Source: Noviherbaspirillum sedimenti (lineage in GTDB: Bacteria; Pseudomonadota; Gammaproteobacteria; Burkholderiales; Burkholderiaceae_D). From it: a stretch of DNA of 64,000 nucleotides. A program made the position numbers and the translations under genes. Below the pieces are notes generated by a model that was given only the letters and a program-made list of their open reading frames with translations, searched no databases and had not been told where the DNA came from. Where the stretch lies: contig NZ_QYUQ01000002.1 in NCBI RefSeq assembly GCF_003590835.1, forward strand, positions 3,906,001 to 3,970,000. The letters run 5' to 3'. Shown piece by piece: positions 6,471 to 38,330 of the stretch (its first letter is position 1; each line of letters begins with the position of its first letter).

Positions 6471-6906
6471 GTCTTTTCGTCTCCTTGGTTGTTGCCCCTG
6501 CAACGGTGCTGCTTGGTTGCGTCGGTAGCCGCACCCTGGGCCGCAGCGAATAAGCACGTCCGACTCGTGCGGTCAAAAGATTTGGCGATTGCATTATGGT
6601 TTTGTACGGCTCGCGTTGTAAATAGGTCAGACCATAACGAATGTTGAGGGTAATTGTGCCGCGGTCGATACATCTCGTCTGCCGATCGCCCCGGAAACAT
6701 AGCCTTTCTTTTTCGCCGAACCGGAGTAGCGCCGCAGCTCGGGCTCCCTGGCAGAGACGAAGGCCTCTTGCTTTCTATTCAGACTCAGAGGTCATCGGAA
6801 CGGGAGCACGACAATTGGATGCATCGATCGTTCATTGATCTTTCAGAGATTCTTATTTTTTTGGCCACGTAGCCACGAGATATTCCTCGCCGGTCCGAAA
6901 GTTTAG
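6471..6906. other. Intergenic region upstream of the TRAP receptor and NIPSNAP operons
   Basis: No convincing gene. The region holds the regulatory palindrome at 6625 and sequence homologous (inverted) to the upstream part of the third NIPSNAP copy at ~36.1-36.2 kb, notably around 6820-6905. Short open frames on both strands lack domains. Confidence 0.6.
6624..6634 (-). promoter_or_regulatory. GGTCAGACC palindrome upstream of the TRAP receptor gene
   Basis: AGGTCAGACCA is a near-perfect FadR/GntR-type palindrome, ~155 bases upstream of the receptor start (minus strand). A -10-like CGTTAT immediately precedes it on the minus strand, but the corresponding -35 (GCGGCA) is weak. Part of the family of sites listed under 6907, 17681, 18119, 23620, 24067, 27307, 35355, 36065 and 38292. 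Confidence 0.5.
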
Positions 6907-6946
6907 TTGACTTCACTTCATTCAACAGATATTATTTGGTCGGACC
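6907..6946 (+). promoter_or_regulatory. Sigma-70 promoter with GGTCGGACC operator over the start site
   Basis: TTGACT (6907-6912), a 17-base spacer, TATTAT (6930-6935), then TTGGTCGGACC (6936-6946). The palindrome covers the expected +1, the position of a classical repressor site. It precedes the NIPSNAP gene at 7034 by about 90 bases and probably drives 7034-12179. The third NIPSNAP copy has the same arrangement (36065-36104, minus), with different bases in the spacer but preserved motifs. FadR-subfamily GntR regulators bind TGGTNNNACCA-type sites; the assignment to the regulator at 32770 is inference. Confidence 0.75.
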
Positions 6947-7033
6947 TTAAAAAATTTTGTGCCGCATGATCTTTTATTTGGGGTGTTTTCCAGCGGGAGC
7001 GTGCGGCGATTTTCAGTATTGGGAGGAGGAAGA

Positions 7034-7360
7034 ATGATCTTGGAAATGTGTGTTTATCGCTGCGCAGCCGGGCGGCTGCCGGTGCTACTCAAACGCTTTG
7101 AGACTGCGACGTTGCCGCTGTTCGAGAAGCATGGATTCAAGTCGCACGGTTTTTTCACGACCGTGATTGGGGCGTCGCATCAGGAGTTGACGTACATGCT
7201 TCGGTGGGAATCGCTCGCCGAAAGGGAAGGCTGCTGGAGAACCTTCCACGCGGACCCCGAATGGATCGCGGCGCGTACGGCGAGCGAAGAGGACGGGTTC
7301 ATTGTGGTGAACGCATCCAACCAGATTCTGCAGCCGACAGCCTTTTCGCCGTTGCGGTGA
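7034..7360 (+). CDS. NIPSNAP family protein, copy 1
   Basis: 108 residues starting at ATG 7034 behind GGGAGGAGGAAGA; a longer frame from 6959 lacks a ribosome site. The protein has the ferredoxin-like NIPSNAP fold: EMCVYRCAAGRLP at the start, FEKHGF in the middle, ADPEWIAART and a final QPTAFSPLR. Function of bacterial NIPSNAP proteins is not established; they often accompany degradation gene clusters as small dimeric alpha-beta barrel proteins. It is nearly identical to the copy at 35632-35958 and a distant paralogue of 21304-21630. It is the first gene of a plus-strand operon headed by an operator-bearing promoter. Confidence 0.85.
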   Translation: MILEMCVYRCAAGRLPVLLKRFETATLPLFEKHGFKSHGFFTTVIGASHQELTYMLRWESLAEREGCWRTFHADPEWIAARTASEEDGFIVVNASNQILQPTAFSPLR

Positions 7361-7474
7361 CTGCCTTGGGGATTGCCGGAACGGCCGTCCAGATGCCACA
7401 TGCAGCACAGACTTGAACGCTGCTTTTCGGGATGGGTCAGTCGGCCGCCTCGCCACTAACTGAGAGAGTTGCAA

Positions 7475-8482
7475 ATGAAGATGACACATAAGCGGAAACT
7501 TGGCCAGGGCGGCCTCGAGGTGTCGGCTTTCGGGCTCGGCTGCATGGGGATGAGCTTCGCTTACGGTCCGCCCGCCGACAGAGCCGAAATGATCGGGCTG
7601 CTCCGCAAGGCAGTAGAGCGAGGTGTGAGCTTCTTCGACACGGCCGAGGTCTATGGCCCCTACGCAAATGAGGAGCTGCTCGGTGAAGCGCTCGAGCCCT
7701 TTCGCGGCGAAGTCGTCATCGCCACCAAATTCGGTTTCAAGCTCAAGGCCGATGCTTCGCCCGGTTGGGACGGGCTCGACAGCCGCCCCGAACAGATCAG
7801 GAAGGTAGCGGACGCGTGCTTGAAGCGTCTGCGGGTCGACGCAATCGATCTGTTCTACCAGCATCGCACCGATCCCGACGTTCCGATCGAAGACGTTGCC
7901 GGCACGGTGAAGGATCTGATCGCTGAAGGCAAGGTAAAGCACTTCGGACTGTCCGAGGCGGGCGTGGATACGATCCGGCGCGCGCACGCGGTGCAGCCCG
8001 TGGCCGCATTGCAAAGCGAGTATTCGCTCTGGTGGCGCGAGCCAGAAAGCGAAATCCTGCCACTGCTCGAAGAGCTCGGCATCGGTTTTGTGCCCTATAG
8101 CCCCCTTGGCAAAGGTTTTCTCACCGGAACGATCGACGCGAACACTCAGTTCGATAGCACAGATGGCCGAAGCACGAAGCCGCGCTTTCAGCCTGAGGCC
8201 ATCAAGGCGAACCAGGCACTCGTTGCCCTCATCCAGGGCGCAGCCGTTCGGACAGGCGCGACAGCGGCCCAGGTCGCGCTCGCATGGCTGCTCGCGCAGA
8301 AGCCATGGATCGTGCCGATCCCAGGCACACGGAAGCTGAGCCGGCTGGAGGAAAATCTCGGCGCCGCGGAAGTGGCTCTATCGGATGAGGAGCTTAGCAG
8401 CCTGTCGGAAGCTGCGGAGAAGATCGATATTCTCGGCGGCCGCTATTCCGAGGATATGCGCCAGCACCTCGAACGCAACTGA
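7475..8482 (+). CDS. Aldo/keto reductase
   Basis: 335 residues, NADP-dependent (alpha/beta)8-barrel oxidoreductase of the YhdN/AKR13-like group. The catalytic tetrad is visible: Asp55 and Tyr60 ([16 protein letters not shown]), Lys85 (IATKFGF) and His130 (LFYQHRTDP). The C-terminal cofactor segment [14 protein letters not shown] is present. Start at ATG 7475 with GAGAG upstream; the TTG two codons earlier is less likely. Expected reaction: reversible reduction of an aldehyde or ketone. It follows the NIPSNAP gene by 114 bases and is probably co-transcribed. Confidence 0.88.
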
Positions 8483-8574
8483 ACAGAATTTTCAATGGAC
8501 CGCCCATCTATCTTGGGAAACCGCGGACACGCAGTCGCGTCGCTCGCGTAAGTGGTGAAAGAGGAGAAACAGCA

Positions 8575-8700
8575 ATGCTGCCATCAAAATTAGGCACCGT
8601 AATAGGCCCGAGCGAGGGCACTGAAGGCGCCTCGACTGCCAAGAGCGGACCAGCGGTTCCGCTGCGTATGACATTCGGCTTGTCCAGGGGGAGTAAGTAA
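8575..8700 (+). CDS. 41-codon ORF translationally coupled to the CoA-transferase
   Basis: ATG 8575 sits behind an excellent ribosome site (GAGGAGAAACAGC) and the frame ends in TAA 8698-8700, overlapping the CoA-transferase ATG at 8700 as TAATG. The peptide starts MLPSKLGTVIGPSEG and ends LSRGSK. It has no membrane segment or known domain. The GTVIGPSE piece faintly recalls the N-terminus of MaoC-like hydratases, so it could be a gene remnant. Either way its start and stop position make it a likely coupling leader for the next gene. Confidence 0.5.
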   Translation: MLPSKLGTVIGPSEGTEGASTAKSGPAVPLRMTFGLSRGSK

Positions 8701-37881: not shown

Positions 37882-37947
37882 GATCGCCTCCTGCAGCTCT
37901 CTGCCGGTTTGACCATCTGATCCCGATTTCGTTGCCAAGCGACCCAC
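36540..37947 (-). mobile_element. IS630-family insertion sequence with 28-bp perfect terminal repeats
   Basis: CCTAGTGGGTCGCTTGGCAA followed by CGAAATCG (36536-36563) is repeated as the exact inverse complement at 37924-37951. A TA dinucleotide lies at each edge (36538-36539 and 37948-37949), as expected for the TA target duplication of IS630 elements. The outer CC/GG extend the symmetry by chance or by target choice. The element appears complete and sits inside an IS701-like remnant. Confidence 0.85.
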
Positions 37948-37957
37948 TAGGATTGCC

Positions 37958-38178
37958 TTGCCGCCGTGGCAAATGCCGGGACCGCGTTGGCTGCGGTTAC
38001 GCCGGAGCCTGTCCGACGGCAAGCTTGTGTATTACGTCTGTTACGCTCCGCGCAGGACGCCGCTGGAAACATTGGTGCGAGTGGCCGGCATGCGCTGGAC
38101 GATCGAGGAATGCTTCGAGGCGGGCGAAGTCGAGTTGGATCATTATGACTTGCGCAGTTGGCATGGCTGGTACCAGCC
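37958..38178 (+). pseudogene. C-terminal fragment of an IS701-like transposase
   Basis: The frame reads [39 protein letters not shown] and VELDHYDLRSWHGWYQ, the conserved C-terminal DDE region of IS701-family transposases (RWAIEE with the catalytic Glu). It is cut on the left by IS630 and on the right at ~38178 by the CaiB leader copy. Confidence 0.75.
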
Positions 38179-38182
38179 ATGC
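38161..38182. repeat. 22-bp perfect palindrome at a rearrangement junction
   Basis: GCATGGCTGG-TA-CCAGCCATGC is fully symmetric. It lies exactly where IS701-like coding sequence (HGWYQ) meets the inverted CaiB leader copy. It may be a fold-back joint or a DNA-binding site; it has no T-run. Confidence 0.7.
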
Positions 38183-38290
38183 TCTTCAGTGCCTGTCAGG
38201 CGAGCGGCGTTCTCGGCCGCTACGCCCCGTTGAATGGGATGGATTCCGACACAGCGCAAAGTCATTGCGCAATATAAGGGCTGGTCTTTT
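38178..38290 (-). repeat. Inverted copy of the CaiB leader module
   Basis: The reverse complement carries the ATTCAACGGGGCGTAGCGG and CGGCCGAGAA pieces and the TTATATTGCGCAATGACT block of 27320-27420, up to the start-codon region (GAGCATG). The operator equivalent is damaged here (GGGCTGGTC instead of GGTCNGACC). It places a third copy of the divergent promoter upstream of the TRAP operon. Confidence 0.72.
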
Positions 38291-38291
38291 A

Positions 38292-38330
38292 TTGCATTTT
38301 TCTGATCTTTTGCGAAAAATGGTCCTACCA
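38292..38330 (+). promoter_or_regulatory. Promoter with GGTCCTACC operator for the TRAP operon
   Basis: TTGCAT (38292-38297), 17 bases, AAAAAT (38315-38320), then GGTCCTACCA (38321-38330), giving the palindrome TGGTCCTACCA. A second possible promoter follows (TTGACA 38335-38340, 17 bases, GATTAT 38358-38363). The dctP start is at 38516. Confidence 0.68.

Follow-up and report, generated by a model that had tools for sequence, protein, structure and literature searches.

A probable local regulon of a FadR-subfamily regulator with two operator positions in Noviherbaspirillum sedimenti

Regulators of the FadR subfamily of GntR proteins recognize operators for which PMC4494728 gives the consensus GTM-N0-1-KAC. 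According to PMC9329746, Escherichia coli FadR lies over the -10 element and the start site (+1) where it represses, and upstream of the -35 element where it activates; at fabA its position is reported as around -40 (PMC3462791). We compared with these systems a 64-kb stretch of the Noviherbaspirillum sedimenti genome (5.04 Mb, 99.9% complete). This stretch, C2:3906001-3970000, is called the window below, and positions without a locus label refer to it. A first-pass annotation had noticed ten GGTNNNACC palindromes here and proposed that a GntR-type protein encoded at 32770 represses a multi-operon regulon through them. Judging from sequence comparison, the palindromes are very probably operators of one local regulon under this FadR-subfamily protein, and they occupy two positions relative to promoters.

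The candidate master regulator gene lies at 32770-33540 (+). Its product has the domains expected of the FadR subfamily, an N-terminal GntR winged helix (PF00392, 60.1 bits, cut-off 27) and a C-terminal FCD domain (PF07729, 93.3 bits, cut-off 24.3). This domain pair is shared with FadR, PdhR and Corynebacterium glutamicum 2di3, and the GGTNNNACC sites, with their A/T flanks and M-N-K centre, match the published consensus of the subfamily. By sequence, the relatives of known structure include PdhR, NanR, FadR and 2di3. No NCBIfam equivalog cut-off was reached (PdhR model 98 bits, cut-off 330; FadR model 47, cut-off 189). Unlike those of FadR and PdhR, the putative 32770 regulon has other target genes, and orthologues of at least 59% identity were found in a handful of genomes only. 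The five orthologues compared agree closely in the DNA-binding segment, and all have N, H, H and H at FCD positions that align with D, H, H and H of 2di3. In FCD domains of the metal type, Asp or Asn and three His serve as metal ligands, and the residues seen here may have that role.

All ten palindromes were found where the first-pass annotation had placed them. The bare core showed a mild excess in the window (23 occurrences, compared with a mean of 14.2 and a maximum of 24 in 200 second-order Markov simulations). When two flanking bases on either side had to be A/T, 10 occurrences remained, against a mean of 0.67 and a maximum of 4 in 200 simulations. Under the same flanking rule, 16 core trinucleotides were combined with 7 spacers; GGT with a spacer of 3 gave 10 and the runners-up gave 5, one of which (TGG with a spacer of 5) overlaps the same sites. 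From the ten window sites we derived a strict pattern, WWWGGTMNKACCWWW. This pattern occurred 14 times genome-wide (reversed control 4), with 12 of the 14 at C2:3904618-3944332, a 40-kb cluster that comprises the ten window sites and two more a short way to the left of the window. The looser WWGGTNNNACCWW was found 39 times genome-wide versus 78 times in the reversed control, and 12 of the 39 lie in the cluster, so it is enriched only locally. Chance as the origin of the palindromes is ruled out by the simulations of the flanked core and by the genome-wide clustering. The MNK centre is present at all 12 cluster sites versus 6 of 27 outside, but we rejected this as independent proof because it is largely circular, 10 of the 12 sites having defined the pattern. 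Elsewhere in the order, 29 genomes (five from the same genus) had 0-6 copies of the strict motif each, and these formed no cluster.

The motif recurs together with the regulator in four alphaproteobacterial genomes, namely the Rhodobacteraceae metagenome-assembled genome (MAG) PR2 (regulator orthologue of 71% identity), Azospirillum oryzae (68%), Alterinioella nitratireducens (66%) and a genome designated G1056 (59%). Strict sites lie within 47 kb round the orthologue in A. oryzae (7 of 9), in the regulator locus in Alterinioella (3 of 3) and on the regulator contig in the MAG (1 of 2); the 20 kb analysed in G1056 contain 4 sites with A/T flanks, of which two lack the MNK centre. The form GTM-N0-1-KAC with A/T flanks is seen at 12 of 12 strict sites of the host (partly circular, since ten of them defined the pattern) and at 15 of 18 alphaproteobacterial sites, which were picked without requiring the MNK centre. 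Both A. oryzae and Alterinioella have a site in the region that separates the regulator gene from divergently oriented electron transfer flavoprotein (ETF) genes; downstream of the ETF genes, in the same orientation, come BKACE, thiolase and GFO genes. Another site in each precedes NIPSNAP and a citE-family gene, whose product is only 28-32% identical to that of the window. SDR genes downstream of sites in the MAG and G1056 are 71-75% identical to the 34446 gene, and ABC-type solute-binding protein (ABC-SBP) genes downstream of A. oryzae sites are 57-62% identical to the 24195 gene. An operator pair 18 bp apart was also seen near an ABC-SBP gene start in A. oryzae (L049:16718-16744). Host BKACE and acyl-CoA dehydrogenase are 85-89% and 86-90% identical, respectively, to those of the three named alphaproteobacteria, while on our reading by eye the host's 16S appears betaproteobacterial. 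Gene transfer between proteobacterial classes likely accounts for these identities.

We searched for the regulator more widely. No 32770 match was found in 59 relatives (E 1e-40), 368 genomes of the class (1e-55) or 397 of the phylum (1e-45), sets which overlap and in which the prefilter scored few candidates per genome, such that distant orthologues would escape; at the limits used, the idea that the regulator is common among relatives was rejected. Matches were confined to Alterinioella and G1056 among 394 genomes of Alterinioella's family, and to A. oryzae among 385 genomes of its class. Two plasmid records matched, each at less than 45% identity. Among the entries listed from the open-licence PMC literature, searched without any term unique to the regulator, none described this regulon.

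The position of the sites relative to promoters was analysed with 30 sites (12 from the host, 18 alphaproteobacterial) in 60 oriented views, with offsets counted from the core's first G. A strict -35 was defined as TTGACA with at most one change in the last three bases, at offsets -31 to -26 or +14/+15. Such elements were found 16 times, compared with 1.24 expected from flanking positions (4 versus 0.4 for host sites and 12 versus 0.84 for alphaproteobacterial sites); the printed p value of 5e-13 is far too optimistic because the offsets were chosen after inspection and several sites are copies or orthologues. Two arrangements were observed. In type I, at 11 of 30 sites, the operator covers the -10 element and/or +1. 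In type II it lies 5-6 nt before an exact TTGACA, at 5 of 30 sites versus 0.024 expected. All five exact type II sites precede dctP (38321+ in the window, L050:5651+, L052:3501+, L052:10814- and L049:7200-), compared with none of ten testable type I sites (L028:87- runs off its contig; Fisher p 3.3e-4, post hoc and with sites partly related). The five DctP proteins share 50-61% identity across all ten pairs. One type I site heads a solute-binding gene of another kind (L048:8927+). A held-out check used 18 of 21 sub-strict matrix matches, with L029:3537, L052:10774 and L052:7553 excluded. TTGAC stood at +14 three times, all in L028 (8562-, 8786+ and 8786-), L028:8562- heading dctQ and dctM; near -31 there were two TTTACA (-31 and -30) and one TTGACC (-32). 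These held-out sites lend modest support to the two geometries.

The first-pass annotation had described, at seven sites, a -35 element, 17 bases and a -10 element ending 0-2 nt before GGT. These strings are present at all seven places. They are not independent, because six form three duplicated pairs, and with the copying of promoter modules the seven reduce to about four. The -35 at 27307- is CTGACA, and weak -10s such as AAAAAT and GAAAAT occur at several of the places. That the sites head NIPSNAP, SDR, citE and TRAP units was upheld, but the annotation probably picked the wrong promoter for the TRAP unit (38292+): operators take two positions relative to promoters, and across the type II operator at 38321-38329 there is a better candidate. 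This proposed promoter, TTGACA-17-GATTAT at 38335-38363 (+), 5 nt after the operator, probably serves the TRAP transporter genes dctP, dctQ and dctM (38516-41385, +; PF03480, PF04290 and PF06808).

Several promoter-operator modules have been copied within the locus. The NIPSNAP gene is present in two copies (6996-7364 and 35628-35996) that agree at 95% of 369 nt and are preceded by related promoters. The near-identical stretch is mostly coding and the promoter regions are more diverged; gene conversion could have homogenised the coding part. Copy 1 encodes 108 aa from a likely, conserved ATG (7034-7360, +; PF07978; homologues of 108 aa) and is preceded by a type I site at 6938-6946 (-35 at 6907-6912, -10 at 6930-6935, +), and copy 2 (35632-35958, -) is preceded by a type I site at 36065-36073. 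The site at 35356-35364 precedes an SDR gene (34446-35201) and a hydrolase gene (33607-34425), both on the minus strand. A copy of this SDR promoter, with its leader and first SDR codons, precedes the MmgE/PrpD gene (16072-17406, -), as seen by alignment with 35140-35900; it contains the site at 17681-17689 and, at 17459-17518 (-), a relic of the SDR gene's first codons. The citE promoter region with the CaiB start (23605-23868) occurs again at 27292-27556 (two blocks, of 85% and 91% identity), and part of it is found a third time upstream of the TRAP operon (80-83%). The first holds a type I site (23620-23628) before the citE-like gene (22487-23383, -) and an SDR gene (21660-22454, -). In the second, the site at 27307-27315 has its minus-strand promoter directed towards an insertion sequence (IS) and CaiB on its plus side; the IS, noted in the first-pass annotation as well, is represented by a transposase open reading frame (ORF) with DDE_3 at 25880-27127 (-). 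The third holds a decayed operator, GGGCTGGTC (38278-38286); the intact operator at 38321 is a separate one. Transposase genes were found at 25880-27127, 36536-37951, 19633-21034 and 12551-13363. The IS-like element at 36536-37951 has 28-nt perfect terminal inverted repeats and split transposase ORFs.

We propose the following mechanism. A 32770 dimer would contact the GGT/ACC half-sites, three bases apart in A/T-rich flanks. Where the operator overlies -10/+1, as at several enzyme units, bound protein would block transcription until a pathway acid or a related metabolite binds the FCD domain. At dctP promoters of TRAP systems, by contrast, the operator sits immediately upstream of the -35 element. 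The set of sites would have grown partly via copied promoter-operator modules inside this IS-rich island.

The evidence for one regulon under 32770 must be set against several observations that weigh the other way. Nine FCD matches exist in the genome, and although 32770 is the only one within the cluster, eight further FCD regulators are encoded elsewhere. The motif is also near the general subfamily consensus, and the sites might thus belong to another FadR-family protein with 32770 as a bystander. We regard this as improbable, since the 3.3-3.4 kb loci round the other eight FCD genes contain no site with fully A/T flanks and since the sites recur beside 32770 orthologues in four other genomes. 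Upstream of 32770 itself there is no strict site but a weak variant palindrome, ATTAATGGC-CAT-GCCATTAAT at 32532-32552, a possible autoregulatory site with a matrix score of 13.7; for comparison, simulation of 30 windows gave one that scored 20.1. In the MAG, another 18 kb of the contig bearing the regulator held no site, and the MNK centre is broken in 3 of 18 alphaproteobacterial sites. At 4 of the 12 host sites (18120, 24068 and the pair left of the window) and 6 of the 18 alphaproteobacterial ones, the surroundings fit neither arrangement clearly. A composite type II pattern, scanned against 345 genomes of Alterinioella's family, matched 3 times and its reversed control 10 times; two of the 3 matches lie before dctP genes of G1056 and one in a genome designated G839, where tblastn with 14 regulon proteins found at the locus only distant GntR matches (26%; 38% over 73 residues) and no DctP. 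From the control and the G839 locus we conclude that the composite pattern is not specific by itself; the regulator-bearing genome G799 had zero matches to it. Several modules being segmental duplicates, the palindromes could in principle be only part of a copied dispersed repeat with no regulatory role. This is hardly credible, as sites outside the copied modules have only the palindrome in common and strict -35 elements are phased to the sites (the 16 above, at offsets chosen post hoc). A regulon with 32770 as its best candidate regulator is retained from the first-pass proposal, on the strength of the clustering and the four other genomes. The two operator positions leave repression of all units unestablished.

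With the regulon under 32770 accepted, the direction of control at the uptake genes can be read in two ways. Simple catabolic repressors are the usual case. Plain repression everywhere by the same regulator, which at dctP would block the -35 element from its upstream edge or act via paired sites, is in our view reasonably probable; in its favour, a second, degenerate site is found close to the start at two alphaproteobacterial dctP promoters (L049:7147 and L052:10774). Against it stand the retention of the upstream position at five dctP genes and the reported activation by E. coli FadR from upstream of -35 (PMC9329746). As described, E. coli FadR has dual control, repressing fad and activating fabA and fabB, and the two operator positions here are alike in this respect; unlike in E. 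coli, the upstream sites lie before TRAP uptake genes, not biosynthesis genes. Since E. coli FadR acts oppositely from equivalent positions, opposite control of uptake and enzymes is possible. We therefore put forward, tentatively and by analogy, that 32770 may activate TRAP dctP from upstream of -35 and repress the enzymes over -10/+1, such that a scout uptake stays on, and that this position code may have been kept across dctP genes of 50-61% identity and, if our reading of the host's 16S is right, in two classes of proteobacteria. Its setting would be an IS-rich island in which promoter-operator modules are copied onto new genes. If this is true, the inducer could enter before the enzymes are made.

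The remaining sites were assigned to neighbouring genes. The site at 6625-6633 precedes another dctP (5604-6557, -), with a weak type II promoter on the minus strand (TTACAA-17-CATAAT, 3 nt after the operator). Two sites of unclear promoter geometry lie upstream of a TctC-type solute-binding protein gene (18120-18128; gene 18451-19413, +) and of an ABC-type one (24068-24076; gene 24195-25346, +). TctC-type solute-binding genes (PF03401) are numerous across 18451-63308 and L024, most without an adjoining strict operator. In the 25414-27127 region, the ABC permease gene looks truncated because its profile match is partial (2-198 of 269) and the IS transposase ORF overlaps its end. On the plus side of 27307 there follow CaiB, acyl-CoA dehydrogenase, CoA-transferase-type and amidohydrolase genes, then a gap and the regulator gene. 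The putative regulon extends left beyond the window, where two strict sites precede MaoC and BKACE, and thiolase, GFO/MocA and SDR genes then run into the window; a near-site, GGACGGACC, lies upstream of an amidohydrolase gene there (L024:15362).

The BKACE left of the window (L024:17358-18314) passes NCBIfam NF053538, the model for 3,5-dioxohexanoate:acetyl-CoA cleavage (533, cut-off 430), and matches BKACE15 of Paracoccus denitrificans (8RIP/8RIO) at E ~1e-143; structures available for comparison are PDB 8RIO, 8RIP and 9HNF. PMC11961710 reports the physiological role of BKACE15 as unknown and its gene context as linked to aromatic degradation. The comparison with triacetate acetoacetate-lyase and the phloroglucinol enzymes of PMC10470551 covered the BKACE. 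The itaconate models RipB (134, cut-off 340) and RipC (144, cut-off 375) were hit at scores well short of their cut-offs, and we propose no substrate.

The locus presents a compact, testable local regulon, with a candidate regulator, 12 strict sites, targets and relatives in four other genomes. It covers a close relative of BKACE15, an enzyme of reportedly unknown role. Its copied modules, among them one that retains the relic of a gene start and another whose operator has decayed, make visible in one locus how genes can be recruited into a regulon, and its two operator positions would allow opposite control of uptake and breakdown genes by one protein to be tested.

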